A stretch of 38,478 nt of DNA, from positions 1-38,478 of IMG/VR virus record IMGVR_UViG_3300025687_000127. One strand, 5' to 3'. The DNA comes from a virus. Positions 6,635 to 30,245 of the stretch are shown piece by piece. Made by a program: the position numbers and the translations under genes. Position 1 is the first letter of the stretch. Every line of letters starts with the position of its first letter. The notes under the pieces were generated by a model. It worked only from the letters and a program-made list of their open reading frames with translations. It was not told the origin of the DNA and did no database searches.

Positions 6635-7176
6635 TAGTTAATACCCCATTCTTCCGGAATGTCACTGTTATCTAACCACCAAGACTTACGCCACTTCCCA
6701 CTATGTCCACCGCATATAGCAGGGTCATTTGTAGAACATGTAAAGTCTGGACTTTTATCTGACTTTTTGCTGTTACGATTATCGTACACCATCTGTCCAC
6801 AGTATGGACATTTTAAGTCATCTCTATATTTCTTTTGTTCTTCCATTTTATTTAATATGCCTCCTAGCATATCACCAGAACCTTGCAATCCTGGCGTTAT
6901 ATCTTTTGACTCTATACCAACTGCTGATAACTTCTCTTGTATAGACATATTGTCAAAGTCATCTTGTGAATATTCAACAGGCATATCAACAAGTCGTTCA
7001 ATCATGTTGAAATACTTATCTAATTGCTTGTCTGTCCATATCTTTTTATCAGCAGGAAACTTCATAGCACTAGCGTATTGATTAGCAGTGCCAAGAATTT
7101 TGTTTAGAGTTTCTTTATTCTGAACTGATGCAGTCATAGACTGTATAGTATTTACTATAAAGTTTAAGTCTTGCAT
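6634..7176 (-). CDS. Zinc-ribbon protein (180 aa), likely DNA-metabolism accessory
   Basis: Starts at a TAATG overlap with the Rad52-like gene, so the two are translationally coupled. The N-terminal 120 residues are helical; the C-terminal part has a zinc-ribbon: CPYCGQMVYDNR, then FTCST and CGGHSGKWRKSWW. The ribbon plus basic/aromatic end suggests single-stranded DNA or RNA binding. Location beside the annealing protein suggests a recombination or replication role. The specific family is not recognised. Confidence 0.7.
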   Translation of the reverse strand: MQDLNFIVNTIQSMTASVQNKETLNKILGTANQYASAMKFPADKKIWTDKQLDKYFNMIERLVDMPVEYSQDDFDNMSIQEKLSAVGIESKDITPGLQGSGDMLGGILNKMEEQKKYRDDLKCPYCGQMVYDNRNSKKSDKSPDFTCSTNDPAICGGHSGKWRKSWWLDNSDIPEEWGIN

Positions 7177-7742
7177 TAGAAAGGTGCTTCGTTATTTTCA
7201 GTATCTAAGATACTATTCATAATGTCATTCATGCGTTGAACATCTTCCTTACTAGGTTTGTTTTCTTTCTTACGCATATCTACTTTATGAACTTCAACCA
7301 TAGCATCTTTATCAGCCATCTCTTGTGTATAACCATCAGGTGCTATAGATGTAGCTTCTTCTTCTGATTGTACTGAACCTGACCATAGCTCTACGCCTAG
7401 ACCAAATCGCATACATGCACGTTTAAATGCATCTGATTCAGCATCTTTAAGGTTAGTACCATCATTGAACTTAGCATTGCCTAGCTTGAATGTATCAACG
7501 TCACCGAAGCCATCAAAGCTACCCATGCCTTCAATAGTTATAGTACCTTTAGCACCTACTATTCTTTTCTCACCGTTATGTGTACCATATACAGGTTCAC
7601 ATTGCCATGAGTATTTCACACCACTATCACGTAATCTTTCTACATAATGTGCGTGTGGAACATAATCACCAAACTTACCAGCTGGTGCTTTTCTTACTAA
7701 CTCCTGTGGAAAAGGGGATAGTAAGTCAACGTTATTTTCCAT
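7176..7742 (-). CDS. Rad52/Rad22-like single-strand annealing protein
   Basis: 188 residues. The conserved Rad52 core is visible: YVERLRDSGVKYSWQCEPVY (33-52), RIVGAKGTITIEGMG (60-74), then LKDAESDAFKRACMRFGLG (98-116) followed by VELW. The family promotes annealing of complementary single strands and phage-encoded members drive recombination-dependent replication. The C-terminal part is a disordered acidic linker ending EAPF, reminiscent of SSB-type tails. Preceded by AAAGGAAG and hairpin H1. Confidence 0.85.
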   Translation of the reverse strand: MENNVDLLSPFPQELVRKAPAGKFGDYVPHAHYVERLRDSGVKYSWQCEPVYGTHNGEKRIVGAKGTITIEGMGSFDGFGDVDTFKLGNAKFNDGTNLKDAESDAFKRACMRFGLGVELWSGSVQSEEEATSIAPDGYTQEMADKDAMVEVHKVDMRKKENKPSKEDVQRMNDIMNSILDTENNEAPF

Positions 7743-7759
7743 AACATACTTCCTTTCTG

Positions 7760-7802
7760 TTTCTTTCTGTCTGACTTCACATGTGAGGAAGACAGAAAGA
7801 AA
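7760..7802 (-). ncRNA. Intercistronic hairpin H1 of the 17-nt-core family
   Basis: Perfect 13-bp stem (7760-7772 with 7790-7802) enclosing 17 nt; gene-sense core TCCTCACATGTGAAGTC. It begins 2 bases after the stop of the 57-aa gene and ends just before the ribosome binding site of the Rad52-like gene. No T-run follows, so it is not a classical terminator. Confidence 0.75.
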
Positions 7803-7804
7803 TA

Positions 7805-7978
7805 CTATTCTTCTTCTTCTAAGTCTAATAAGACTCGTAAGTTATGCACACCACGTTCTAGTGGTACTAACTTAACTTCGCCTTGGTTATTTGTTAGTAT
7901 AAAGAATGGCTTGTCACCAAGTCCACTGTATTCTATACCTGTCAATTTCCATTTAGACTTGACATTTATGTTAGTCAT
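7805..7978 (-). CDS. Small unknown protein (57 aa) with acidic tail
   Basis: ATG at 7978, TAG at 7805-7807. β-rich, polar sequence (WKLTGIEYSGLGDKPFFILT) ending in a run of four Glu. Lies 13 bases after the phosphoesterase stop and directly before hairpin H1. The pre-start sequence is only weakly Shine-Dalgarno-like. No family recognised; the frame fills an otherwise empty gap with typical codon use. Confidence 0.6.
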   Translation of the reverse strand: MTNINVKSKWKLTGIEYSGLGDKPFFILTNNQGEVKLVPLERGVHNLRVLLDLEEEE

Positions 7979-7991
7979 ATGTTTATTATAC

Positions 7992-9056
7992 CTATACTTT
8001 ATCTAGTTTTACAAGGTATTCAGCTGTAACTCCATGATTAGGTTTAGCAAATAGTAACCATTGACATGGTTTACCCATGCTTGCTAATTGTTCTAATGCA
8101 TAGGTGTTATAGCTTTCTGTACTTCCATTTACCCATAAGCGTATGTCATTAACGTACATAGTTGTAGGTGTATGAAAGTGTCCTGCAATAGCGTAATCAA
8201 AGTCAGGCATTAAACCTGCTGATGCTAATGCTTTCCAACCTAATAGTTTTTTACCAAATCCATACCATGGAAAACCACCATGTCCTCTAATATTATCACC
8301 ATGCCATACAAAGAACTTACATCCTTTACCAAGGTCAGCAATATCAAACCAATGATTGTCACCCTTAGAATCAGGAATAGTAAATGATATTCTTTTATCT
8401 TTTTCATATACCATATCCATTATTTTGCCTAGCATTCTGTCTGCATTAGAGTCTGGATGGTAGTCTTTTCTTGCACGTCCACCTAATGAACCGTGATTAC
8501 CTATCACCCAATGTACATCTACTTCGTCAAAGTTTGCTAGTAATATGTCAAAGAACTGTGTCAATATTCTAGGTCCATCAATAGTAACTTGGTTATACAA
8601 TGACGCATCTATAAGATGTGTTTGACCTGGGAATATAAGTTCGCCTTCTACAATATCACCAGCAGCTAGGACTACACATTTGTTAACTGGATGTGCATTA
8701 CGTTGAATGTTTGTCAATTCAACTATCTTATTTGCATATGCAATTACACGTTGTTCAGCTACTTCTGTGTTATAATCTGGTGTTATCTTTGCTAATTGAA
8801 CATCAGATAATACAGCTACTGCTACTTCGCCATTCTTATTTGGTTTGTGTAACGAAGGCTTAGGTATTGTAGGTTTATCCCACGTCCTAAGGTTTGTAGC
8901 AACAGCGTCATAAACTGCATCTATCATATCAGCTTTTTTATTTTTAGCTTTCTCTAATGATTTAAGAAGTTTAAGATTATCTGCTTTGAGTTCTTGAATC
9001 TTAATAGACTCAGCCTCAGCTAATAACTTTTCTATTTCGTTATTATTCTTGGGCAT
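7992..9056 (-). CDS. Calcineurin-like metallophosphoesterase (SbcD/Mre11-type nuclease candidate)
   Basis: 354 residues with the five metallophosphatase motifs in order: SDVQ (84-87, where the usual His is Gln), GDIVE (133-137), GNHG (186-189), WHGD (251-254) and GHFH (292-295). These bind a two-metal centre that hydrolyses phosphodiesters. Related phage proteins sit next to recombinases and are taken as DNA exonucleases. Residues 1-60 form a helical coiled coil. No SbcC-type ATPase partner gene is present. The start lies within the end of the small HTH gene upstream (14-base overlap). Confidence 0.8.
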   Translation of the reverse strand: MPKNNNEIEKLLAEAESIKIQELKADNLKLLKSLEKAKNKKADMIDAVYDAVATNLRTWDKPTIPKPSLHKPNKNGEVAVAVLSDVQLAKITPDYNTEVAEQRVIAYANKIVELTNIQRNAHPVNKCVVLAAGDIVEGELIFPGQTHLIDASLYNQVTIDGPRILTQFFDILLANFDEVDVHWVIGNHGSLGGRARKDYHPDSNADRMLGKIMDMVYEKDKRISFTIPDSKGDNHWFDIADLGKGCKFFVWHGDNIRGHGGFPWYGFGKKLLGWKALASAGLMPDFDYAIAGHFHTPTTMYVNDIRLWVNGSTESYNTYALEQLASMGKPCQWLLFAKPNHGVTAEYLVKLDKV

Positions 9057-9291
9057 TATCTACTAAGTTTTGAAAGTGATTACGTACTGCACTCTCACTT
9101 ATTTTGATACCATAATGTTCTTTAAGCAATCTGCTTACAACAAATGGTTTAATGGGTCTACCAGCTAGAACTCTTGACTCTATACCATCCCAAAAAGGTT
9201 TAGCTTCGTCAGTTATTCTTTCTGATATACGATTAACTTTTCCTGTTTCTGCTTCAGTCAACAGTTGTTCTATATCTATCATAGGTTTCAT
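9043..9291 (-). CDS. Small HTH protein paired with the phosphoesterase
   Basis: 82 residues; the C-terminal half GRPIKPFVVSRLLKEHYGI followed by ISESAVRNHFQNL is a helix-turn-helix with a clear recognition helix (SAVRNHF). This HTH plus phosphoesterase gene pair is a common phage arrangement and the HTH may target the nuclease to DNA or regulate the operon. Overlaps the downstream gene by 14 bases. The start (9291) has no strong ribosome binding site; Met4 is an alternative. Confidence 0.7.
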   Translation of the reverse strand: MKPMIDIEQLLTEAETGKVNRISERITDEAKPFWDGIESRVLAGRPIKPFVVSRLLKEHYGIKISESAVRNHFQNLVDNAQE

Positions 9292-9585
9292 TATAATGTC
9301 GTTTATTATTTATACAAGTATCTAATCGTACAGTCTGAATAACAAGGTTGTACTTACTGCTGTTACAGTTCTATAGCACGGTGCAGAATTAGTATGTGAT
9401 TAAGTTTCGTAACCTCGTGTATGATTGAGTACGCAAGTTATCCTACATAATTACAGTGTTTCTTTTATCACGTCCATAGCGTTCTAGCTATCTTATAGAT
9501 AGTAGTTATACCCTAAGACAGACTGTATCCATAGATTTTTATTTGTATTACATGATTATCCTTCATTATATTCCTCCATAGCTCC
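9292..9585. other. Gene-poor leader between structured region and HTH gene
   Basis: About 290 bases with no convincing long frame. It contains small inverted repeats (CTATC/GATAG at about 9487-9501) and the 17-codon frame at 9513-9566 (listed separately). No tRNA fold was found by eye on either strand. It forms the long 5' leader of the HTH/phosphoesterase unit if transcription continues from the right. Confidence 0.4.
9513..9566 (-). CDS. Possible 17-residue leader peptide
   Basis: A strong Shine-Dalgarno (GGAGGAAT) stands 3-5 bases before an ATG at 9566, followed by an 18-codon frame ending TAG. A site this good in a gene-poor region, immediately downstream (leftward sense) of the GC-rich structured region, suggests translation of a short leader or a remnant start. 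Too short to judge by composition. Confidence 0.25.
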   Translation of the reverse strand: MKDNHVIQIKIYGYSLS

Positions 9586-9819
9586 GTTCCCTTGCTCCTC
9601 AGCGTTTCGCACCTGCGAAAGGTGCTGTACGCTTCGTCGCTGGGAACTACGCTATTCCGTCATGGTATGTGTAGCAGTGTTCACTATGGGTTGATTGTTG
9701 ACATTCAGAGGTTATCACCTGTTGCAGGTTCTCCCTGCACTCTATTCTGCTACTGAGTACAGCTTTAATTAGTGGAAAGGAACACTAACACACTTGCGTG
9801 TTAACTGTATTCCATACCA
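9586..9819 (-). ncRNA. Candidate structured RNA
   Basis: GC-rich island in an AT-rich genome with nested complementary segments. First domain: GTTCCC (9586-9591) with GGGAAC (9642-9647), AGCGT (9601-9605) with ACGCT (9629-9633), GCACC (9609-9613) with GGTGC (9621-9625). Second domain: TGGTATG (9663-9669) with CATACCA (9813-9819), GTAGCAG (9671-9677) with CTGCTAC (9747-9753), TGCAGG (9723-9728) with CCTGCA (9734-9739), TAACAC (9786-9791) with GTGTTA (9798-9803). The outer stem touches the stop codon of the VWA gene at 9820. Strand is assigned from surrounding transcription. No known RNA class is recognised. Confidence 0.55.
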
Positions 9820-11238
9820 CTATAGCACTTGATTTAATTTAAGTGCATGTTCCTTTACTTCCTCTATATCTTTGAGGTTAATAATTCTGTTAGCTGTACA
9901 TATGTTGTAACAATCTTTCAACAAGTTAAAACCTGCTGCGTCACCATAGTTACTACCAAATACTTTCATATCTGATACCCATATTCTACGTTCAGGCATT
10001 GATGCTAACCATTGCAGTGCAGGACCATCAATAACATTGCCTCTACCTACATAGTCAGATATATATTTATCATTAACACGCATACCATTCTTTGCAATGA
10101 TATGTAAATCACCTGTGTTATGACTACCGTTATACATTGCTATGTTAACTGCAGGTAATAACTGCATAATTTCTAGTATGTCATTACCATTAAAGTTCAT
10201 AGAACCTGATGCATCTATAAGTATTGTGCCACCTTTAACACGTTGTTTTTGTTTAAAGATTTTCTTATCAATACAATACCTACTAATGTACTTAGGATTG
10301 TAACCATAATCAGATGGACGATATGACCTACCATTGTTTAATCTACCTTGTAGGTTTACAGACATAGCTGGTGTATGTATAGTCATCTCACCCCAGCGAC
10401 CAATACCACGTCCACTAGAATATTCCATATCTTCTACAAGTTGTTTACGCATACGTTTTTCTAAGTCATCAACAGTAGGACCTAATGTTTCACCATCAGA
10501 TTCATTACTACCTTCAGTGCTTTCACCTTCGCCTTGACCATTACCTGTTTGTTGTTGTGGTTTAACATCTTCAGGTTTAGGTTTATCTATAAATTCATTA
10601 AGAATAAAAGATAATTGTTCTGCTAACTTTTGTGTTTTACGATAGCTTGGAAACTGATTATATTTATGTGTAATCATTCTACGTATAAATCCTAACGCAG
10701 TATTCTTTGCAAACTTTAATTCAGCTTGTCGCAATACTGATATATCAGGACTAGATATACAACTATTTAATACATTTAATACATATTCAAATGGTTCAGT
10801 ATAGTCTTTACGTTTATCAAAAGCAGCTGAAGATATTACATATAATATTACATCAGCTATTGATGCATGAAACATCATATCTGTTACATGTAGTTTTATT
10901 TTATCTTCACATTCTATAAAATTATCCATAGCTAAATTAGCTTTACCTAATCTGTAATTAATACGTACTTCTTCTAACGCTTCTATAGCATCTGACCTTG
11001 TACCACGCATTAGTTTACCCATAGTTTTAGGTGACCATTTAGCATGACCTAGTTCGTGTCTACGTATCATTCTACTGTGATTGACACCACATCTTTCACA
11101 TTCCCTATCCATAGGAACATACATTTGTTTGTTTAAGTTATCTGTTCTAGGTACAGGGTTTGCATCTGTAGGTTCTAGTACATGCCATTCATCCCCAGTT
11201 ACAATCTGGGGATATGGATATGCTTTAGGTTTAGTCAT
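9820..11238 (-). CDS. VWA-domain protein (CobT-like partner of MoxR ATPase) with HExxH motif
   Basis: 472 residues. N-terminal CERCGVNH (47-54) and RRHELGHAKW (59-68), a zincin-type HExxH, precede a helical region. A disordered acidic Gln/Glu/Ser stretch spans about 225-250. The C-terminal von Willebrand A domain has the MIDAS motif LIDASGSMN (340-348, D342, S344, S346). VWA proteins act with MoxR AAA ATPases as metal-dependent substrate adaptors in CobS/CobT-like or RavA/ViaA-like machines. The gene starts 8 bases inside the end of the AAA gene, confirming a pair. Whether HELGH is a true peptidase site is unknown. Confidence 0.8.
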   Translation of the reverse strand: MTKPKAYPYPQIVTGDEWHVLEPTDANPVPRTDNLNKQMYVPMDRECERCGVNHSRMIRRHELGHAKWSPKTMGKLMRGTRSDAIEALEEVRINYRLGKANLAMDNFIECEDKIKLHVTDMMFHASIADVILYVISSAAFDKRKDYTEPFEYVLNVLNSCISSPDISVLRQAELKFAKNTALGFIRRMITHKYNQFPSYRKTQKLAEQLSFILNEFIDKPKPEDVKPQQQTGNGQGEGESTEGSNESDGETLGPTVDDLEKRMRKQLVEDMEYSSGRGIGRWGEMTIHTPAMSVNLQGRLNNGRSYRPSDYGYNPKYISRYCIDKKIFKQKQRVKGGTILIDASGSMNFNGNDILEIMQLLPAVNIAMYNGSHNTGDLHIIAKNGMRVNDKYISDYVGRGNVIDGPALQWLASMPERRIWVSDMKVFGSNYGDAAGFNLLKDCYNICTANRIINLKDIEEVKEHALKLNQVL

Positions 11239-11950
11239 TAGCTTTACTTAATGTAATAGCGTCTACTAATTCTTCAGACTTGTAACCGAATACTAATCTA
11301 CCTGCAGCTTGTGCTGAAAAACCTTTGTCTTGTAAGTCAAAGAATTCTTTCCAAGCACGTACAGATATACGTTCTTCAGGGTCATCAATCATAGTTGTAT
11401 CATTGATAACGCTGTGCCATTCATCTGGGAATTGTGCCATAGCTTTTGGATGTATCTTATCGACATGTATTTTTACAGGAAATCTATCCTTTAACGCAAG
11501 TGGCAATGATTCAGGTGGACTGTTAGTTGTAGCTACAACTTGAAAGCCTTCAGCTGGTCTAACAGTTTCTTTTGTGTCATTGTTTAATGTCAACATTGCT
11601 ATGTCTTGGTCATCCAATATAGCGTGTAAGAAAGTCATAGCATCTGGTGAAGCGTGGTCTATCTCATTGATAACCAATCTACCACCATTACGCCATGCTT
11701 GTATTGCAATACCATCGTGCCATTCAAAGCTACCATCTTTGCTAGGTTTGTAAAAACCTTCTAAGTTAGCAGAAGCTGTGTCTTCTGTCATGGTTATCTG
11801 GTATACGTTAGGGTTGCCATTCATATCTAATGGCGTGCTTTGTGCTACTGCACTGTATGTTTTACCTGTACCTGGTGGACCGTATAGCAATACACGTCTT
11901 GACTTACCTAGTACAGATGATACTAATTTCCAACAATCATTTTCTGACAT
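11231..11950 (-). CDS. MoxR/CobS-type AAA+ ATPase
   Basis: 239 residues. Walker A GPPGTGKT (24-31), Walker B-type LVINEIDHA (92-100, E96, D98) and sensor-1-like VATTNSPPESLP mark an AAA+ ATPase of the MoxR clade, slightly shorter than usual. Such ATPases remodel or insert metals into partner complexes with a VWA protein; the downstream overlapping gene encodes exactly that. CobS-like genes are recurrent in marine phages but their phage role is unsettled. Preceded by AGGAAGGTAA close to the ATG. Confidence 0.85.
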   Translation of the reverse strand: MSENDCWKLVSSVLGKSRRVLLYGPPGTGKTYSAVAQSTPLDMNGNPNVYQITMTEDTASANLEGFYKPSKDGSFEWHDGIAIQAWRNGGRLVINEIDHASPDAMTFLHAILDDQDIAMLTLNNDTKETVRPAEGFQVVATTNSPPESLPLALKDRFPVKIHVDKIHPKAMAQFPDEWHSVINDTTMIDDPEERISVRAWKEFFDLQDKGFSAQAAGRLVFGYKSEELVDAITLSKAND

Positions 11951-11961
11951 TGTTTACCTTC

Positions 11962-12267
11962 CTATTCTTCTTCGTTATTTGTAGTAACAAAACGACAATA
12001 AATATCTATGTTGTTACTGTTTATATTTTTTCTTTGTTGTATCTCAAACTTACCTTTATCGGCAAGATGAGATATATTACGCTGAGTCATAGACTCAATG
12101 TTTTGTTTAACACCACTAATCCATTTGCTTCGCTCAGCAATTCTGAACCATGTGTTAGGTGAAGATAACAACACTTTAACTACATCATTAGATAATAATG
12201 TAGGTTGTTTACCTTTCCTATTCTCATATGGTTCAGGTGGATTAGCTTGGTATATACCTTCAGGCAT
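11962..12267 (-). CDS. Unknown protein (101 aa), possible DNA-binding
   Basis: I place the start at ATG 12267 (MPEGIYQ) after AAGGAAGG rather than the upstream GTG at 12276; this leaves an 8-base overlap with the upstream gene. The sequence is basic in the middle (TWFRIAERSKWISGVKQNIE) with a helix-turn-helix look (TQRNISHLADKGKFEIQ). The C-terminus is acidic (NNEEE). The family is not recognised. Confidence 0.65.
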   Translation of the reverse strand: MPEGIYQANPPEPYENRKGKQPTLLSNDVVKVLLSSPNTWFRIAERSKWISGVKQNIESMTQRNISHLADKGKFEIQQRKNINSNNIDIYCRFVTTNNEEE

Positions 12268-12715
12268 TCTTATCACCTTCCTTTAAGTAATCTTCTACCT
12301 CATCAGATATATTTGTAATTTCTTGATTTAAATTACGCATCGTCATATCTTTTAATTTATCTACATCAGCTCTTAAAGTACATTGAATTGATGTAGGTTC
12401 TACTAACAACCATGATTTAAATACACCAAGGTCTTCAGCATGTTGTCTTATTTCTTCTATCTCATCTAAAGTAAATGTATCTTTATTTTTTATTACTCTA
12501 TCGTCCATAAATTGTGTCATAGTTTCTGCACGACAAATAGTAATTATTTTCATAGCTTCTTCAATAGCATGAGTATTAGATGTTGCACTTACATTAACAC
12601 ACCATACATCTGGTTTATCAAATGATGGTTTGTCACCGTGACTATCGATATTATAATAAGCAACTTGTACTTGATATTCTTTTGTAGGTATTGGGTCAAC
12701 TTCAATGTAATTCAT
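12260..12715 (-). CDS. Unknown protein (151 aa)
   Basis: Starts in a 4-base ATGA overlap with the gene upstream, a strong coupling signal. The N-terminal half looks β-rich (YQVQVAYYNIDSHGD, DVWCVNVSATSN), the C-terminal half helical and acidic. No motif or family recognised. Confidence 0.7.
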   Translation of the reverse strand: MNYIEVDPIPTKEYQVQVAYYNIDSHGDKPSFDKPDVWCVNVSATSNTHAIEEAMKIITICRAETMTQFMDDRVIKNKDTFTLDEIEEIRQHAEDLGVFKSWLLVEPTSIQCTLRADVDKLKDMTMRNLNQEITNISDEVEDYLKEGDKNA

Positions 12716-12918
12716 TCTTGTTCACCTGCTACATTAGAATTGTATGCTTTATTTATTTGGTATTGAACAGCTTCTTCAAGCATTGCACACCAACCTTTTA
12801 TTCTTTCGTCAAGTCCTGAGTAGTTATTAGCTGCGTTATGTAAATCGTTTAACGTCCACAATATAATTGAACGCAATTGTTTATAACTTAAACTATCTAA
12901 CTTGTCTAATGTTTCCAT
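12712..12918 (-). CDS. Small helical unknown protein (68 aa)
   Basis: The longest frame begins at 12978, but that would translate through hairpin H2. ATG 12918 directly follows AAAGGAAATGT, the same ribosome-binding layout as the starts at 14699 and 15918, so I chose it. The product is helical (KQLRSIILWTLNDLHNAANN), with no family recognised. Confidence 0.7.
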   Translation of the reverse strand: METLDKLDSLSYKQLRSIILWTLNDLHNAANNYSGLDERIKGWCAMLEEAVQYQINKAYNSNVAGEQE

Positions 12919-12925
12919 ACATTTC

Positions 12926-12968
12926 CTTTCTTTGTCTGGATTGCAAAAGAGAAGACAGACAAAGAAAG
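12926..12968 (-). ncRNA. Intercistronic hairpin H2 of the 17-nt-core family (divergent core)
   Basis: Perfect 13-bp stem, CTTTCTTTGTCTG (12926-12938) with its complement at 12956-12968, enclosing exactly 17 nt. Gene-sense core TCTTCTCTTTTGCAATC keeps only the family's invariant positions. The 3' foot runs into the Shine-Dalgarno of the 68-aa gene. Confidence 0.65.
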
Positions 12969-13015
12969 ATATGAACATTGGGCATGCGATAATTCTTTAT
13001 CTGTCTATCTCTTAT

Positions 13016-13079
13016 AGCTATCTACTTTCAGTCGTGTAGCGATAGGGTATGAGAACTACACTCTTACTTATAGATAGCT
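13016..13079 (-). ncRNA. Nested inverted repeat, candidate RNA domain
   Basis: AGCTATCTA (13016-13024) pairs perfectly with TAGATAGCT (13071-13079), and inside it GTGTAG (13034-13039) pairs with CTACAC (13056-13061). A milder CTATC/GATAG repeat occurs in the other long leader near 9487-9501. Function unknown; strand follows local transcription. Confidence 0.45.
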
Positions 13080-13174
13080 TGTAACACACAGAGAGTTGGT
13101 ATCATCTTGGCTAAGTGCCTCAAAGGTTTTGTATTGTACTCTCAAATTTCAAACCTTATACCTTTATGTGCTAC

Positions 13175-13233
13175 AAGCTACCTACATTTTGGTCTAATGG
13201 CTTGCAAAGGGGTACAAGCAATGTAAGTAGCTT
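13175..13233 (-). ncRNA. Long intercistronic hairpin
   Basis: AAGCTAC-C-TACATT (13175-13188) pairs with AATGTA-A-GTAGCTT (13220-13233): 13 pairs with a single mismatch, capped by GCTTG (13200-13204) with CAAGC (13215-13219). It starts 12 bases after the stop of the Api92-like gene. No U-tract is seen on the leftward sense, so it may stabilise the 3' end or regulate the next gene. Confidence 0.6.
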
Positions 13234-13245
13234 TTGCGTTATCAA

Positions 13246-13872
13246 TTACAGTGGTTCTGCATTGAAACTTTCTTTAGTTTTCTTGTTTAATATTTCTTTA
13301 TTAATATCTAATACTTTTCTATGGTCACGATAAACATCTAGTGTTTCTTCTGGTGTCCAAGGATACTCAGTAGTAACTGTATCATCTTCAAACTCGTGAC
13401 GAACAGTATTAATTATTGTCAAGTTATATTTATTAGCTATGTCATTAAGTAACATAAATGGTTCTCCCCAAGCAGATTGAAATGTAAATACAAGTTCTCT
13501 TGTACCTTGGGATGTTGTGTCTGATAATAACTCAGTGTCACAATCTCCCCATTTAGTTCCCCAAAATCTATATTGCCAATCAATAGGTGCATATACACCA
13601 TACTTAGCAATGAGTTCGTTCTTAGTTACATCAAGCAATGGTCTTAATCCATCTGCATCGTCATACCATGCGTCACATTTAACACCATCTATCTCACGAC
13701 TACCTTGATGTAATTCTTTCATCTCTGTAGGTAAAGGAAAACAATCAGTTAAATTAAATATAACTTCTGGTTCTCCGTCAACAGTAACTTTGTTTGTAAT
13801 AGTATCCATAAAATCATTAACATCTTTTACAGAACCACTGATTTCTATTGTATTGTCTGTCCAATTAGGCAT
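13246..13872 (-). CDS. Api92/YubB-like ferredoxin-fold protein
   Basis: 208 residues. The opening MPNWTDNTIEISGSVKDV, the central WQYRFWGTKWGDCD and later FTFQSAWGEPFMLL match the DUF1281/Api92-like pattern (N-terminal MPNW.N.v.i.G, WGTKWd, tAW.pP). These proteins have a ferredoxin-like α/β fold and occur on phages and plasmids; biochemical function is unknown. Excellent start context GAGGAGGAATAATG formed by the upstream gene's terminal Glu codons. Confidence 0.8.
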   Translation of the reverse strand: MPNWTDNTIEISGSVKDVNDFMDTITNKVTVDGEPEVIFNLTDCFPLPTEMKELHQGSREIDGVKCDAWYDDADGLRPLLDVTKNELIAKYGVYAPIDWQYRFWGTKWGDCDTELLSDTTSQGTRELVFTFQSAWGEPFMLLNDIANKYNLTIINTVRHEFEDDTVTTEYPWTPEETLDVYRDHRKVLDINKEILNKKTKESFNAEPL

Positions 13873-14063
13873 TATTCCTCCTCATCTTTTATCGTATACA
13901 TATCTATTGACCATTCAATATCTTTAGATACATTCATTAATTCAAATTCAGCTCTACCAACTGCGTCTTTTAATGATGTATCTGTTGGAAAATAAAATGT
14001 AATACTTAGGTCATTAGTTTTTCTTTTATTATCTATATCTTTATATACATAAATGTCATCCAT
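13872..14063 (-). CDS. Small unknown protein (63 aa)
   Basis: The start is set at ATG 14063, which overlaps the upstream stop (TAATG) and follows GAGGAGGAA; a longer frame from 14096 lacks such a site. The sequence shows a β-like segment (LSITFYFPTDTS) and a C-terminal acidic EEE that supplies the next gene's ribosome binding site. Family not recognised. Confidence 0.7.
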   Translation of the reverse strand: MDDIYVYKDIDNKRKTNDLSITFYFPTDTSLKDAVGRAEFELMNVSKDIEWSIDMYTIKDEEE

Positions 14064-14410
14064 TATTCCTCCTCTAAACCTAGATGTGTTTTCCATTCTT
14101 CTTTAGTAACACCAGTCATTGCTATTTTTAAAGCATTAAATGTATCTAATAGTTCAACAAAGAAAACATCGTTCATTGTTTGTTCGCCTTTATCACTGGT
14201 ATGAAATGTAATGTCAAACAAATCTCCCCATGTGTGATGTATTGTAATTGTCATAAGTTTGTTATGATAATTAGGAAACTTAATCTGCAAACCACCTCTT
14301 GATTTATCGCTTTCCTTTATTTCAATTACCTCATCACATTTAGATAAGTCAAAGTTAACTTCTTCTGCATAAGCTTTGATAGCATCTGCACTGTCTGTAT
14401 ACATACGCAT
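14063..14410 (-). CDS. Unknown protein (115 aa)
   Basis: Follows a GAGGAGGAATA ribosome binding site. Contains ITIHHTWGDLFDITFHTSD, an aromatic and His-rich β segment, and ends LEEE. The ending and size resemble its neighbours, suggesting a small-gene cassette, but no family is recognised. Confidence 0.7.
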   Translation of the reverse strand: MRMYTDSADAIKAYAEEVNFDLSKCDEVIEIKESDKSRGGLQIKFPNYHNKLMTITIHHTWGDLFDITFHTSDKGEQTMNDVFFVELLDTFNALKIAMTGVTKEEWKTHLGLEEE

Positions 14411-14411
14411 A

Positions 14412-14699
14412 TTATTCCTCCTCTAATATTGTATTAATGTGTTCATTTATATCCATAGTAAATACTTTAGCTGCGTCACTAACATCATCTCTGTTCATAA
14501 CAAAGTCTGTAAAGTCGTCACGAATATCTTTAACAGATAATGTAGCAGCTACAAATTTAGCCATAAACTTACGGTCTTTATCACTTAGGTTCTCTACTAT
14601 TGTCATTTGTACAATACTTAACAACTTTATTTGTCGTCGCATATTGTCTAGTGTATCTACTATTTGTGATAGTACTTTTTCTGTAGTCTTTGTATCCAT
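14412..14699 (-). CDS. Helical unknown protein (95 aa)
   Basis: The frame is open from 14747, but the first 16 codons would lie in hairpin H3. ATG 14699 follows AAAGGAAATAT, so it is the likely start. The protein is all-helical (TLDNMRRQIKLLSIVQMTIV) with a C-terminal EEE that doubles as the downstream Shine-Dalgarno. Function unknown. Confidence 0.7.
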   Translation of the reverse strand: MDTKTTEKVLSQIVDTLDNMRRQIKLLSIVQMTIVENLSDKDRKFMAKFVAATLSVKDIRDDFTDFVMNRDDVSDAAKVFTMDINEHINTILEEE

Positions 14700-14712
14700 A
14701 TATTTCCTTTCA

Positions 14713-14753
14713 TATTGTGTGTCCGACTCCATAAGGCAGAAGGACACACAATA
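14713..14753 (-). ncRNA. Intercistronic hairpin H3 of the 17-nt-core family
   Basis: Perfect 12-bp stem TATTGTGTGTCC (14713-14724) with 14742-14753, enclosing 17 nt. Gene-sense core TTCTGCCTTATGGAGTC. It lies 9 bases after the stop of the 71-aa gene and just before AAAGGAAATAT-ATG of the next. Confidence 0.75.
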
Positions 14754-14762
14754 ATATATAAT

Positions 14763-14978
14763 TTAGAACGGTATATCTTCGTAATCTGCTTGGTCAACAT
14801 CAATTTTTAAGTCAATGTTTAAAGCTTTCAAATCTGCAGTGTAATTATCTTCTGCTTTGTTCTCATAGAATTTAATAACACCTTGTCCAACCATTCGTTC
14901 TACTTGTGTTATTTCATACTTATCTAACAAAGTACTGAGTGTATTAATTGCATCATTGATTTTTGCTATGTCTAACAT
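14763..14978 (-). CDS. Small protein (71 aa) with SSB-like acidic C-terminal tip
   Basis: The body is helical then mixed (TLLDKYEITQVERMVGQGVI), and the chain ends DQADYEDIPF. The final DIPF with preceding acidic residues is nearly the C-terminal tip of bacterial SSB, the peptide that recruits many replication and repair proteins. The length is too short for a full OB fold, so this may be an SSB-tail mimic or a minimal single-strand binder. The start follows GAAGGGATAAT. Inference from the tail only. Confidence 0.7.
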   Translation of the reverse strand: MLDIAKINDAINTLSTLLDKYEITQVERMVGQGVIKFYENKAEDNYTADLKALNIDLKIDVDQADYEDIPF

Positions 14979-15076
14979 ATTATCCCTTCGTTCATAGTAT
15001 TGTAGTTGTTATACAACACTTACTTAACAAAGTATAAAATATATAAAAAGTTATTTATATATTTATATACTTTATT

Positions 15077-15101
15077 CTGCCTACACATTAAGTATAGGCA
15101 G
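15077..15101 (-). ncRNA. Short intercistronic hairpin, outside the 17-nt-core family
   Basis: CTGCCTA (15077-15083) pairs with TAGGCAG (15095-15101) around an 11-nt loop. It is in the same position as the other hairpins (after a stop at 15120, before the next gene), but core length and sequence differ. A second small dyad GTTGT/ACAAC is at 15005-15017 within an A+T-rich leader. Confidence 0.5.
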
Positions 15102-15119
15102 TATAAAATATACTATATT

Positions 15120-15431
15120 TTATAGTGGTGCTTCATCCTCCATGACTGGAATAGAAGCTTGGACAGATGCAGTAACTTTCTCAGTTACTTTATCTTTCCC
15201 TTGTAATGAAGTAGGACTTTGGTTATGTAGTTCCCAAAGTTGTGCCTGTGCATTTCTAATTACTTGAAGTAATTCTGCAACCTGCGGTTGAGTTTTATCC
15301 AAGTGTAAGAATGATGTTTTAACACCATTAGCTTTTGTACTATAGTAATGCACCGGTGTCATCTCACTCCATTCTGTGAGTTGTCTACCTGTTATTGCAT
15401 CGATTACCTCATAAGGTACTGGTTTTGCCAT
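15120..15431 (-). CDS. Unknown protein (103 aa) with acidic C-terminus
   Basis: Good start context (AAAGGAGTATATAATGG). N-terminal region MAKPVPYEVIDAITGRQLTE, then a helical part with Gln-rich stretch, a disordered linker and the ending MEDEAPL. The acidic-plus-hydrophobic end resembles the two other SSB-like tips in this cluster. Family not recognised. Confidence 0.75.
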   Translation of the reverse strand: MAKPVPYEVIDAITGRQLTEWSEMTPVHYYSTKANGVKTSFLHLDKTQPQVAELLQVIRNAQAQLWELHNQSPTSLQGKDKVTEKVTASVQASIPVMEDEAPL

Positions 15432-15490
15432 TATATACTCCTTTCATTATCTTATTATTTGTATTAATAGCTTGATATATAAATTAATAT

Positions 15491-15539
15491 ATATCGTAGA
15501 GTGTCCGACTCCATGAGTCGGAAGGACACTCTGCGATAT
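15491..15539 (-). ncRNA. Intercistronic hairpin H4 of the 17-nt-core family
   Basis: 16-bp stem with one T:G position, ATATCGTAGAGTGTCC (15491-15506) with 15524-15539, enclosing 17 nt. Gene-sense core TTCCGACTCATGGAGTC. It abuts the stop codon of the 73-aa gene and precedes a 60-base leader to the next start. Confidence 0.8.
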
Positions 15540-15761
15540 TTATTTAACTAGAGATTTCTTATGCCAATCCCATACAGAAACATCGGATGCTATAACTTTA
15601 GCCTTGCAGTCGCCAAAGTAATGTATATTTAACATATACACTTGACCTGTCTTTTTAGACTTTTTCATCCAACAGTCTTTGACGAATACAATGGGATATG
15701 TACAAACTACACATCTTTTATGTTTGAATTTACCAAATAGGTTTATAGAATTACTTTGCAT
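15540..15761 (-). CDS. Small zinc-finger-like protein (73 aa)
   Basis: CVVC (17-20), then C30 and HYFGDC (47-52) could form a Cys/His metal site of treble-clef style. Otherwise basic and aromatic, ending WDWHKKSLVK. Start after AAAGGATAATTAAA. Likely nucleic-acid binding; the function is not known. Confidence 0.75.
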   Translation of the reverse strand: MQSNSINLFGKFKHKRCVVCTYPIVFVKDCWMKKSKKTGQVYMLNIHYFGDCKAKVIASDVSVWDWHKKSLVK

Positions 15762-15782
15762 TTTAATTATCCTTTCTAATTA

Positions 15783-15827
15783 ATCTCTATCTGTCTGACT
15801 TCATAAGTCAGAAAGACAGATAGAGAT
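15783..15827 (-). ncRNA. Intercistronic hairpin H5 of the 17-nt-core family
   Basis: Perfect 14-bp stem ATCTCTATCTGTCT (15783-15796) with 15814-15827, enclosing 17 nt. Gene-sense core TTCTGACTTATGAAGTC. It begins 7 bases after the stop of the 27-aa gene and ends before the ribosome binding site of the 73-aa zinc-finger gene. Confidence 0.8.
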
Positions 15828-15834
15828 AATTTGA

Positions 15835-15918
15835 TTATGACCAACAGTAATCACATTCGCAATAGTATTGGTTTTCATCGTAATCATAGATGAGTTCTTG
15901 TTGACATTGTTCTAACAT
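15835..15918 (-). CDS. Cys-rich micro-protein (27 aa), first gene of the leftward unit
   Basis: ATG at 15918 directly follows AAAGGAAATAT, identical to the site before the gene at 14699; stop TAA at 15835-15837. The peptide is acidic and aromatic with cysteines at 5, 20, 22 and 25 (CECDYC), able to hold one metal ion. Flanked by hairpins H6 and H5. Strong initiation signal makes translation likely in spite of its length. Confidence 0.6.
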   Translation of the reverse strand: MLEQCQQELIYDYDENQYYCECDYCWS

Positions 15919-15980
15919 ATATTTCCTTTCTCTACATAGGTATATTAAATAACTATATATCTCTTTATTTGAAATCAAAC

Positions 15981-16021
15981 TACATACAGTCCGACTTCAT
16001 AAGTCGGAAGGACTGTATGTA
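15981..16021 (-). ncRNA. Leader hairpin H6 of the 17-nt-core family
   Basis: 12-bp stem TACATACAGTCC (15981-15992) with 16010-16021, enclosing gene-sense core TTCCGACTTATGAAGTC. After a 2x2 mismatch the pairing continues six more bases (15973-15978 with 16024-16029). It is in the 5' leader of the first leftward gene, downstream of the proposed leftward promoter. Confidence 0.8.
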
Positions 16022-26452: not shown

Positions 26453-27822
26453 TGAAAGAAAAGTTAATAGCATTATGGAATGCTTTAAATGAAAAACAAA
26501 ATAATTCTCCACTTAAAGGTTCAATACCTAGAAAGTTAAGAGAGTTTAATCAATTTATTAATGATGAGTTTTGGTCTAAAACACCTTTAAGTGATGAAAA
26601 TGCTAAAGAAGCTCAACGTGAAATTGCTAATTGGTGGAACTCTAACATTGCTACAACTGAAGCAGAACAGATAGAAGTAGAAGATGTAGGCGTACCTACA
26701 CCTAGTAAAACAGAGTTTGAATCACAAGTACCAGCAGAAGTTTCTGGTAAAAAAACTGGTAAGTATTATGAGAATATATTTTCTTATGGTATGTCTGAAC
26801 CATCATTTAATAAGTTATTGTCATTGTTTGGTGTCAATCCAAATGAAGAAGCTGTATATAACTACATAGCGAGTTTAGATGTAGGTGACCCATTTAGAGC
26901 AGAAGCTTTAGATTACTTAGCTTTAATGACTGGTGAAACATTATTAAGACCAGCATATACAGAAGATGGTGTACCAATACTTGATGATAATGAAACACAA
27001 GTATTAATGCCATTTACTGGACATTTTCAGGGAGTTAAAGTAGAAGACTTTATAGATTCTAATGCAACACCAGATGAAATTAACAGATGGCAAACATACT
27101 TAGAACAAAACAATATTGTACCTGATAATTACTTTGCTGAAAGTAGAGGAGAAATGTCAGAGAAATTACGTGCTTCTGTTAAGTATGTTATGAACTGGTT
27201 AGATGAAAATAGATATGTTGTTAAAGGTACAGATATTTATGAAACTATAATGCAACAAACACCTGTGTATTTTACATCTTCATCTGCTGCTTATGATGAT
27301 GCTGATTATCATAGAAATTTATTGCAGTATGCATTAGAAGAAATGGCTGTATCACAAGATGCTTTAGATGATGTAGAAGAAGCTAAAATTGCTAAACAAC
27401 TTGCTGAAGAATATATACCACCAACTAAAGCTAACTTAGAAGATATGGTAGAAAATTACTTTACTACGAAGCTTGGACGTAAACCTACTGAAGAAGAATT
27501 AGACCAATGGTCAACTACTTTTGCTGATAGTTACTCTGTAGCATTTGCACAAGCTAGAAGTAAAGCTAAACAGTTAGCGGATTATAACTTTATGGTTTCA
27601 CAACCAGAGTATTTAGAAATGACATCACAACAAGAACAATTGCAAAAAGATTATCCTGGTGCAGGTTTTATTGATTTGTCTGCATTTAGTACTGCATCAC
27701 CAGAAGAAATTATGAATGAACAATTAGAATCTGAATACGGTAAACAAATAGACGCAGTTGAATCAGGTAGGAGAATTAGAAAACTACAAAGCGATTTGTT
27801 GTCTTATATGGCTGGTAGATAA
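26452..27822 (+). CDS. Unknown virion-type protein (456 aa)
   Basis: GTG start overlapping the previous TAG (TAGTG). Acidic, largely helical, with LEDMVENYFTTKLGRKPTEEELDQW (about 330-354, shown in part), which recalls the LGR.PT..E motif that recurs in phage internal virion proteins. No catalytic residues recognised. Followed by TAATG overlap with the NADAR gene, so probably co-expressed and co-packaged. Confidence 0.75.
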   Translation: MKEKLIALWNALNEKQNNSPLKGSIPRKLREFNQFINDEFWSKTPLSDENAKEAQREIANWWNSNIATTEAEQIEVEDVGVPTPSKTEFESQVPAEVSGKKTGKYYENIFSYGMSEPSFNKLLSLFGVNPNEEAVYNYIASLDVGDPFRAEALDYLALMTGETLLRPAYTEDGVPILDDNETQVLMPFTGHFQGVKVEDFIDSNATPDEINRWQTYLEQNNIVPDNYFAESRGEMSEKLRASVKYVMNWLDENRYVVKGTDIYETIMQQTPVYFTSSSAAYDDADYHRNLLQYALEEMAVSQDALDDVEEAKIAKQLAEEYIPPTKANLEDMVENYFTTKLGRKPTEEELDQWSTTFADSYSVAFAQARSKAKQLADYNFMVSQPEYLEMTSQQEQLQKDYPGAGFIDLSAFSTASPEEIMNEQLESEYGKQIDAVESGRRIRKLQSDLLSYMAGR

Positions 27823-30245
27823 TGTCATTTGCTCTTGTTAATCAAATAGCTAGAGATAGTTTGGATTTTACTAACCCAGATAAATTAACTCCTAGTGACC
27901 CTAGAAGAAAACCTGTATTTGAAACTTTAGAAGAAATTAGAAGATTACAAGCACGATTAGACAATATAAAGAAAACAAAAAATACAGATGTATTTGCTAG
28001 TGAAACTGCTTGGCAACAACAAGTTAATAAATTACAAGTTAAAATAAATAATGCTAATACTTACTTACAAGAATTATTAGGTGAAGGTACAGTAGAAAAA
28101 ACTAGATTGTCTGATGTACAACCTAGAGTATATAGTGCTGACCCACAAACATCTACAGAATTAATTGACAAAAATATTAATATATATTCTACAGAAACAA
28201 GTGAGTTTGCTAAATTATCTAACCCTATGACACCTACATTTGAATATGAAGGTAGAAAGTATAGAAGTGTTGAACATGCTTATCAATCATTAAAATCAGG
28301 ACAGTTTGATGAAACTGCTTATAGAGCATTTTTAAATGCACCTGATAGTAAAAGACCATCACAAGGAACTATGGGTACAGATAAAGACAATAGTATTTCT
28401 TTAATGAAAAAGCTTTATAAAGAAATGTTAAATCAAAATCCTCAACAAGTAGATTTATTATTAAAAACAGGTAATGCAAATCTTACACATCTACAAGATA
28501 AAACTATTTGGAAAGATGAATTTCCTAAAATATTAATGGAACTTAGAGATGAATTTAGTAATACTAATACAATTAAACCAGTAGAACGTGTAGGTAATTG
28601 GACTAGAGCTGAAGTTGAAGCTGATAAAGGTTATACATATTTGTTTGGAGATAATACAGCTGATAGAGCTAGTGGAGTAGTTCCTACTCAAACACAAGCA
28701 GTTATTAGAGGTTTAGATAATGCTGTAGGTATTGATACTAGATTGTCAAGAACTGAAGATTGGGTAGACACAGATGCTAATTATAATAAGTTTACACAAC
28801 ACGTTGACGAACAAATACAAAAAGCATTGGATATGGGTAAACCAATTAAAGTATCTGCTGGTGGTATGGGTACAGGTATGGCTAAAGCATTACCACCTAG
28901 ATTTAAAGAATACTTAGATAATGCTATAAAAAATATAGGTACAAGTGCAACACAATTTAATCAAGTATCACCTGACGCTAATTATCCTATTAGAACAAAA
29001 TATAATGCAGAAAATGCTGCTATTACAATAGATTTTACACAAGATGCATCTAAAGGTAGTGGTGCTACTAAAAAAAATGTTAATGCTTCAGGTAACAAAT
29101 ATCAAGCAGTTGTTGTTGATAGCAATGGTTTAATGAAAAATACTGACAATATAGATGCATTAGCTAAAGTAATTGCAGATAACTTAACAAGTGGACAAGT
29201 AGTTAACATTGCTGGTCATGGTGCATATAAAGCTACTAGATTAGGTTCTGCTGGATTTAACGAAGCAATACAGCAAAGTGTATTTGATAATGAACTTAAC
29301 AAAATATTTGATAGAGTTAAATTTTTTATTGGTGATAAACCTATAACAGGTATGGTTATCAGTGGTGGACAATCAGGATATGATGAAGCTGGTATTAAAG
29401 CTGCTAGAAAAATAGGAGTACCTACACAAGTAAACTACACAGGTGAAGGACTTTATAGACCACCAGAAGCAACTGGTGCTAAAGATGATATTAATAATGC
29501 AGAAGCTTTTAGAAAAAGATTTCAAAGATATGGTCCTGGTGGTATGCCACCTATTGATACACCTGAATTTGAAGTGTGGTCACAAGCAAATATAGAAGGT
29601 AAAACAGAAGCAGAGATACTATCTATGGTATCTAAAGAAACAGGTGTTGAAGAAGAATTACTTAAAAAAGGTATAGGTAATTTACCTGGCTGGGTTTTAG
29701 TTCCACTTGAACAAGCACTTGAAACAGTTTTACGCAATACTAAAGCTGCACCATTATTAAAAAATTTAATTAGATATGAATTAAGTGCATTTGCTGCAAT
29801 GATTATTGGTGGTGCAGGTAGTTTTGCTGCTAGTTATGCACAACAAAGATTTGGCAATATGCAAATGTTTTCTAACTTAATGCCTGGTTCTGCACCTAAT
29901 CAAATGCCTACACAAGATTTAGAACAAGCATTGAATAAAGAACAACTAGATACTGTATTGTTTCAAGATGAAGAAGGTAATGATTTTACAATGCATGATT
30001 TAATAAAGTATGAAGCTGCTGGAAATGCTGGTAAAGTAATGGAAGCAGTAGCTAAAGTAATGCCTTCTTATTATTTAGATGAATTTATATTTAAATTAAA
30101 TCCAGAATTTAGAGAAGAATATGGAGATAAAAAGTTTTTTAGTGAAGGTGGTTGGAGAGCTAGCCTTGCACAACCAACATTAATAGAAAAAGCTTTAAAA
30201 CAATTTGCAGAAAGTATGATAGGATTAAGTAACTATGGTAGATAA
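27822..30245 (+). CDS. NADAR plus SLOG (cpYpsA-like) protein (807 aa) in the virion module
   Basis: Residues 1-100: coiled-coil region. Residues 119-245: NADAR (YbiA-like), with INIYST (119-124), YRSVEHAYQSLKSG (147-160, E151, H152), IWKDE (W230) and MELRDEF (239-245). Around 340-370: GGMGTGMAKALPPRFKEYL (347-365), a glycine motif I associate with NADAR companions. About 425-555: a cpYpsA/SLOG-like domain with VVNIAGHGAYKA and VISGGQSGYDEAGIKAARKI (512-531), the GGQ(T/S)G.D loop that binds nucleotides. Residues 654-673: hydrophobic segment (LSAFAAMIIGGAGSFAASYA). NADAR proteins are N-glycosidases reported to reverse guanine ADP-ribosylation; SLOG domains bind NAD/ADP-ribose-type ligands. Inferred: an injected or late-expressed counter-defence factor. 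No homolog search was run. Confidence 0.8.
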   Translation: MSFALVNQIARDSLDFTNPDKLTPSDPRRKPVFETLEEIRRLQARLDNIKKTKNTDVFASETAWQQQVNKLQVKINNANTYLQELLGEGTVEKTRLSDVQPRVYSADPQTSTELIDKNINIYSTETSEFAKLSNPMTPTFEYEGRKYRSVEHAYQSLKSGQFDETAYRAFLNAPDSKRPSQGTMGTDKDNSISLMKKLYKEMLNQNPQQVDLLLKTGNANLTHLQDKTIWKDEFPKILMELRDEFSNTNTIKPVERVGNWTRAEVEADKGYTYLFGDNTADRASGVVPTQTQAVIRGLDNAVGIDTRLSRTEDWVDTDANYNKFTQHVDEQIQKALDMGKPIKVSAGGMGTGMAKALPPRFKEYLDNAIKNIGTSATQFNQVSPDANYPIRTKYNAENAAITIDFTQDASKGSGATKKNVNASGNKYQAVVVDSNGLMKNTDNIDALAKVIADNLTSGQVVNIAGHGAYKATRLGSAGFNEAIQQSVFDNELNKIFDRVKFFIGDKPITGMVISGGQSGYDEAGIKAARKIGVPTQVNYTGEGLYRPPEATGAKDDINNAEAFRKRFQRYGPGGMPPIDTPEFEVWSQANIEGKTEAEILSMVSKETGVEEELLKKGIGNLPGWVLVPLEQALETVLRNTKAAPLLKNLIRYELSAFAAMIIGGAGSFAASYAQQRFGNMQMFSNLMPGSAPNQMPTQDLEQALNKEQLDTVLFQDEEGNDFTMHDLIKYEAAGNAGKVMEAVAKVMPSYYLDEFIFKLNPEFREEYGDKKFFSEGGWRASLAQPTLIEKALKQFAESMIGLSNYGR

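Follow-up and report, generated by a model that had tools for sequence, protein, structure and literature searches.

Variable-stem hairpins with lineage-specific tips precede the presumed early genes of a group of uncultured phages

The translational operators of gene 43 in bacteriophages T4 and RB69 have identical hairpin tops, carried on hairpins of different sizes (PMC3014915). The SAS and ESAS elements of Cluster K mycobacteriophages occur in many copies just before gene starts, with a subcluster-specific inverted-repeat consensus and a function that is not known; the arms of ESAS constitute a conserved 17-bp consensus, for which the authors saw little support for hairpin formation (PMC3203893). 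The stoperators of Cluster A mycobacteriophages are dispersed, asymmetric sites in double-stranded DNA with a phage-specific consensus, at which one phage factor acts in transcription termination (PMC9283540). We have analyzed a set of six hairpins, H1 to H6, that precede leftward genes in the 38,478-base virus record IMGVR_UViG_3300025687_000127 (the whole of which is termed the window), together with the corresponding hairpins of related viruses. On the features tested the set fits none of these systems as a member.

In manner of working, the closest precedent is the gene 43 operator. Like that operator, the hairpins stand beside a ribosome-binding site (here with a median of 17 nt to the start codon) and carry a conserved tip on variable stems, which is shown here within genomes and with a covarying outer stem. 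In contrast to that single operator of one autoregulated gene, there are six to nine hairpins per genome in several lineages, the stems are longer, the tip differs between lineages and a reader is only proposed. In genomic layout the SAS/ESAS elements and the stoperators are closest. As with SAS/ESAS, each genome has many copies shortly before its gene starts, but the arms are free and covarying, with no arm consensus shared as in ESAS; the 13-bp SAS (GGGATAGGAGCCC) was not seen before the start codon in the leader sequences read out, for which no dedicated pattern search was made. Like stoperators, the sites are dispersed and have a phage-specific consensus, but they are variable-arm hairpins in gene leaders, and no more than a proposed reader corresponds to the stoperator factor.

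The early mRNA of phage T7 contains intercistronic RNase III sites. The present hairpins are likewise intercistronic on a phage mRNA presumed to be early, but their uninterrupted helix is mostly short (median 11 bp) and their tips are genome-specific.

The six hairpins are real. A sequence-only reading of the window had located them, each with a 17-nt interior, and our scan confirmed all six, finding no other hairpin with a 17-nt interior in the 38.5 kb. Perfect arms of at least 12 bp occur six times in the window (five with an interior of 17 nt), against means of 0.16 and 0.0 in 25 dinucleotide shuffles of the window, and each copy folds on the coding strand 3.5 to 6.4 standard deviations better than shuffles. 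All six lie on the minus strand within a leftward block of genes that includes those for an annealing protein and an Mre11-like exonuclease and that presumably comprises the early genes; a terminase gene is found at 16394 on the plus strand.

H1 (7760..7802; 13-bp outer stem, core TCCTCACATGTGAAGTC) begins 2 nt past the stop codon of the 57-aa gene f7 (7805..7978, minus) and ends 12-17 nt ahead of gene f8 (7176..7742, minus). The product of f8 is a Rad52/Erf-like single-strand annealing protein, matching PHROG 3290 with E 2.5e-10, and Pfam Rad52_Rad22 with E 0.007, under the curated cut-off. H2 (12926..12968; 13 bp, core TCTTCTCTTTTGCAATC) precedes gene f10 (12712-12918), whose Shine-Dalgarno sequence begins at the foot of the 3′ arm. 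The start codon downstream of H3 (14713..14753; 12 bp, core TTCTGCCTTATGGAGTC) is at 14699, a distance of 13 nt. H4 (15491..15539; 16 bp with one C·A mismatch, core TTCCGACTCATGGAGTC) precedes the open reading frame (ORF) 15120-15431; H5 (15783..15827; 14 bp, core TTCTGACTTATGAAGTC) precedes ORF 15540-15761, with the start 21 nt downstream; and H6 (15981..16021; 12 bp, core TTCCGACTTATGAAGTC) precedes ORF 15835-15978.

The pairing of the outer stem was examined in a set of eight different copies, taken from the window and from the relatives nearest to it. Changes on both sides are seen at 9 of 12 pairs, and the covariation score is 0.77, compared with 0.24 for shuffled copies and 0.31 or less for slid controls. 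Of all cells, 97.9% are paired against 70% on shuffling; since the copies were picked as hairpins this percentage is partly built in, unlike the double changes between orthologous copies, such as that at the top of H5, where T-A becomes C-G in the close relative L005. The outer stem covaries strongly, but the stems are not all wholly different in sequence: the three outer pairs GTC:GAC beside the core are constant across the eight-copy set, and invariant in A-type copies except H2. The odd pair of H4, reported as a wobble, reads C·A in the gene sense and is a wobble on the opposite strand only. Some stems extend beyond a mismatch, H6 for example continuing in its flanks as AATCAA:TTGATT. In some 20 hairpins the stem is broken about 9-14 bp below the core by a mismatch that usually lacks G; this holds the uninterrupted helix below 18 bp, and double-strand-specific nucleases may be avoided in this way.

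The 17-nt interior is not simply an open loop. In half of the window's copies (H4, H5 and H6) the core forms an inner stem of 5 bp, GACTY:RAGTC (GACTT:AAGTC in H6), capped by an ATG triloop and accompanied by a 4-nt 5′ bulge. This bulge can migrate, since it has repeats on either flank (CC-TT-CC in H6). H3 and its counterpart in the close relative L006 adopt another register, C(UUAU)G or C(UUCG)G, and inner pairing is weaker in H1 and H2. The inner stem varies little, with double changes at one pair. Core columns that are invariant among the six copies vary in relatives, although the related set of L061 retains T1, T16 and C17.

Relatives were collected as 54 loci drawn from IMG/VR by means of the exonuclease. 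Of some 55 related virus contigs nearly all have the same hairpin design, oriented with the early genes and mostly placed after the stop codon of one gene and ahead of the Shine-Dalgarno sequence of the following one. When a covariance model was built from the window-type hairpins, a check that the sequence-only reading had itself suggested, independent copies were recovered in L061 (best E 2.5e-11), with weaker matches in other lineages and in the metagenome-assembled contig L082 (E about 0.005), which has two hairpins with window-like 18-nt cores. A plain search for long-armed hairpins reveals far more, each lineage having its own set. The apical cores are lineage-specific, of 17, 13, 10, 7 nt and other lengths. 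The type TTCYGACTTATGAAGTC belongs to the window and L061, CTGACTTAAAAGT to L055 and L010, ATCCTTGCGG and TACCTTACGT to L011, L012 and L027, ACTTATG to L026, CTCTTTATGAGAA to the L019 group, TTATCGG to L034, L036 and L033, CTACTAATAGTATC to L024, and TTTCCTACTGGGATTT to the outgroup L056. A single fixed 17-nt core as the recognition sequence is consequently too narrow an idea and was rejected; the core is altered even in the very close relatives L005 and L006. In the most distant loci, L050 to L053, the f8 site has a short hairpin or none. Among cultured relatives a nucleotide search gave no near match and protein matches were distant only; the region around a related exonuclease of Streptomyces phage Dagobah, scanned at a stricter threshold, has few long hairpins and no common core.

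The placement of the hairpins is regular. A Shine-Dalgarno-like start signal lies downstream of 64 of 71 hairpins, at the median of 17 nt to the start codon given above, and 50 of the 71 stand a median of 5 nt behind the stop codon that ends an open upstream frame. The position of H1 between f7 and f8 is kept in 19 of 19 representative relatives, where the stop-to-start distance is 52-71 nt. Since the 5′ arm is pyrimidine-rich in 63 of 72 hairpins, the elements are oriented with transcription. Gene f2 (12260..12715, minus; 151 aa, with no function assigned) is directly preceded by a hairpin in most relatives, and its Shine-Dalgarno sequence is partly or wholly inside the 3′ arm in L010, L034 (of the same contig group as L031), L033 and L036. 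Taken with the covariation and the recurrence in nearly all relatives, the constant spacing from stop codon and Shine-Dalgarno sequence upholds the proposal of a selected, transcript-oriented structure before early genes. That these are not normal terminators was also correct: a T-run follows only 1 of 71, and none of the six appeared in the terminator scan of the window. A scan for sigma-70-like promoters gave fewer matches than shuffled sequence, and Rfam 15 gave nothing at the gathering threshold in the window (best sub-threshold match 25.4 against 55 bits).

The hairpins nevertheless change quickly. Between the window and its close relative L055 the nucleotide identity is 96.6% in f7 and 94.4% in f8, but 59% in the hairpin between them, compared with 48% for shuffled letters; the identity breaks at the stop codon and the Shine-Dalgarno sequence. 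There are 26 distinct leaders at the f8 site among 55 loci, with a mean folding energy of −15.7 kcal/mol against −5.9 for shuffled letters. The halves of each leader pair with their own partner (−15.7) and not with halves taken from other leaders (−6.7). As judged by these sequence comparisons, the hairpins are replaced far faster than the adjoining genes.

Within one genome, by contrast, the cores resemble one another. Using 55 hairpins from 11 genomes, core similarity was 0.22 within genomes and −0.09 between them; the difference was reached in 0 of 2000 label shuffles, a count that is not a strict probability, both because cores and arms were delimited by hand from the scan output and because hairpins in the same genome are related by descent. 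When different genomes were compared at the f8 site, the similarity was −0.12. Core length has a standard deviation of 3.9 nt overall but of 0.8 nt within genomes. A smaller effect is seen in the 9 nt of arm beside the core (0.07 versus −0.06).

Our tentative preference, for which we would claim a little less than an even chance, is to see the hairpins as post-transcriptional operators on the early mRNA, with a trans factor specific to the phage as their reader. After the stop codon of one gene, the early polycistronic mRNA would fold into a stem of ~11-17 bp, a pedestal whose sequence is largely free while its pairing is kept. This would display a genome-specific apical motif, comprising a bulge, a short inner stem and a 3-5-nt loop, just upstream of the next ribosome-binding site. 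A phage-specific trans-acting factor, most likely a protein, would read the motif on all copies and block, or possibly promote, initiation, so that the early genes would form a dispersed regulon; that such a factor exists, and whether it blocks or promotes, are matters that we infer. Of the roles put forward in the sequence-only reading (processing site, stabilizer or protein-binding element), binding by a protein or other trans factor is thus our best guess from the sequences, processing being disfavored by helices of median 11 bp and at most 17 bp.

In favor of this operator model are the covariation of the outer stem, the placement and orientation of the hairpins, the location of the f2 Shine-Dalgarno sequence in the 3′ arm in some relatives, the likeness of cores within genomes together with their dissimilarity at one site across genomes, the turnover seen between the window and L055, and the gene 43 precedent. 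Several observations weigh against it. Many hairpins leave the Shine-Dalgarno sequence free. The cores of one genome are similar rather than identical, and L026 mixes types. The strand that acts is left unsettled by wobble counts over all structures, 24 G·U versus 17 A·C (P 0.17), many of the G·U pairs coming from other elements without which the balance reverses; moreover, the antisense strand is predicted to be the more stable in 42 of 72 hairpins. We prefer the RNA form because of the placement, the orientation and the recurrence of UUCG and UACG loops in the sense strand (L006, L026, L033), which argue for RNA as the active species rather than prove it.

Nor was a trans factor found. The product of f2 was promising at first, but did not track core type once backbone divergence was controlled, and its AlphaFold model (pLDDT 75, pTM 0.57) gave no significant Foldseek match. 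The f7 protein, one family out of the 15 that were compared, ranks above f2 (partial rho 0.33, with 8 of 2000 permutations), but it is 98% identical between the window and L055, whose cores differ. Most of the small early genes behind hairpins differ strongly between these two genomes, and the factor could thus be among them.

The operator model could be taken further, into a private RNA code for each phage. A single trans factor would recognize one apical motif throughout the early leaders of its phage, with a genome-wide switch of code between close relatives under diversifying selection arising from competition or immunity between phages, as an RNA counterpart of heteroimmunity. We regard this extension as distinctly unlikely as it stands. 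If the operator model is true, an uncultured phage group coordinates its early genes post-transcriptionally through multi-copy RNA operators with a code that changes between close relatives. Such a group would be a natural system in which to study the co-evolution of RNA sites with the factor reading them, and might supply orthogonal RNA parts. The replacement of paired hairpins between near-identical genes is an unusual mode of evolution, and one in need of explanation, even if no reader exists. No earlier description of such elements was found in the literature covered, which comprised open-licence papers, and the set suggests a way of jointly controlling early genes that has not been described before.

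A role in processing or stability is doubtful in our estimation. Here each early cistron would be turned into a message with a stability of its own, through endonuclease cleavage at or next to the hairpin or through protection by the hairpin against exonucleases. In favor of such a role, the hairpins stand between the cistrons of a long early operon, immediately behind stop codons, and stems at the f8 site are stable in nearly all relatives. RNase III, however, prefers roughly two helical turns of double strand. For the longest uninterrupted helix the median is 11 bp (range 7-17), the longer stems being mismatched about 9-14 bp below the core; this falls short of that length, and the hairpins are probably not RNase III sites. 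A general nuclease would, in addition, leave unexplained why cores agree within genomes and differ between them.

Alternatively the hairpins might be passive spacers, stable structures that separate cistrons with no dedicated reader, alike through descent or copying between sites, and with pairing aided by replication repair of imperfect palindromes. The scarcity of wobble intermediates among about 1000 stem pairs, the variation of the apex among close relatives (UUCG in L006 in place of UUAU) and the slight likeness of the arms beside the core within genomes point this way. However, similar cores on different stems in one genome are not produced by simple copying of whole hairpins, and T1, T16 and C17 are held over different stems and genomes (the window and L061). 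We consider passive spacers unlikely.

Inverted repeats acting as extruded or single-stranded DNA hairpins, for instance as N4-type virion RNA polymerase promoters or replication signals, would suit arms that are almost strictly Watson-Crick and an antisense strand that often folds equally well or better, but this is highly improbable: no RNA polymerase match was obtained among the window genes scanned with Pfam or PHROGs (nothing significant matched a 1944-aa window protein, and the record may not be complete), the arms are far longer than the short promoter hairpins of N4, and the steady position between stop codon and Shine-Dalgarno sequence better suits mRNA.

A different structured element occupies the gap upstream of H2 (13046-13237, minus). 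It is conserved in sequence and can form two helices, AAGCTACTTACATT:AATGTAGGTAGCTT and one of roughly 20 bp, GTAGGTAGCTTGTAGCACATA:TGTGTGTTACAAGCTATCTAT, which exclude each other because both use the segment GTAGGTAGCTT. The second of these helices is retained across 16 aligned lineages, the outgroups L052 and L056 among them, and 8 of its 22 pairs show double changes. From its sequence the element looks like a bistable, riboswitch-like leader.

Other features of the window were noted in passing. An 807-aa protein of the late operon (27822-30245, plus) matches DUF7831 above the curated cut-off, and NADAR domain and SLOG (cpYpsA) families below it; it possibly participates in NAD or nucleotide chemistry. 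An AAA ATPase (AAA_5; 11231-11950, minus) adjoins a protein (9820-11238) whose DASGSM motif is characteristic of von Willebrand A domains; the two resemble a MoxR-VWA pair and are present in 19 of 19 relatives mapped. Terminase relatives at 77% and 69% occur in the genome contigs L083 and L082, binned as Actinomycetota and as a gammaproteobacterial metagenome-assembled genome, which are hints of host only, as the binning may be wrong.

The f0 family consists of small early proteins with two to three copies per genome, the window members being 15120-15431 and 15540-15761 (minus), and a hairpin is often directly before an f0 gene. Many relatives have a CxxC...HxxxC pattern in this protein, suggestive of zinc binding. 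Downstream of ORF 15120-15431, at 15034-15127, are overlapping AT-rich hairpins outside the six-hairpin family; similar ones are found in L005, L010 and L055.

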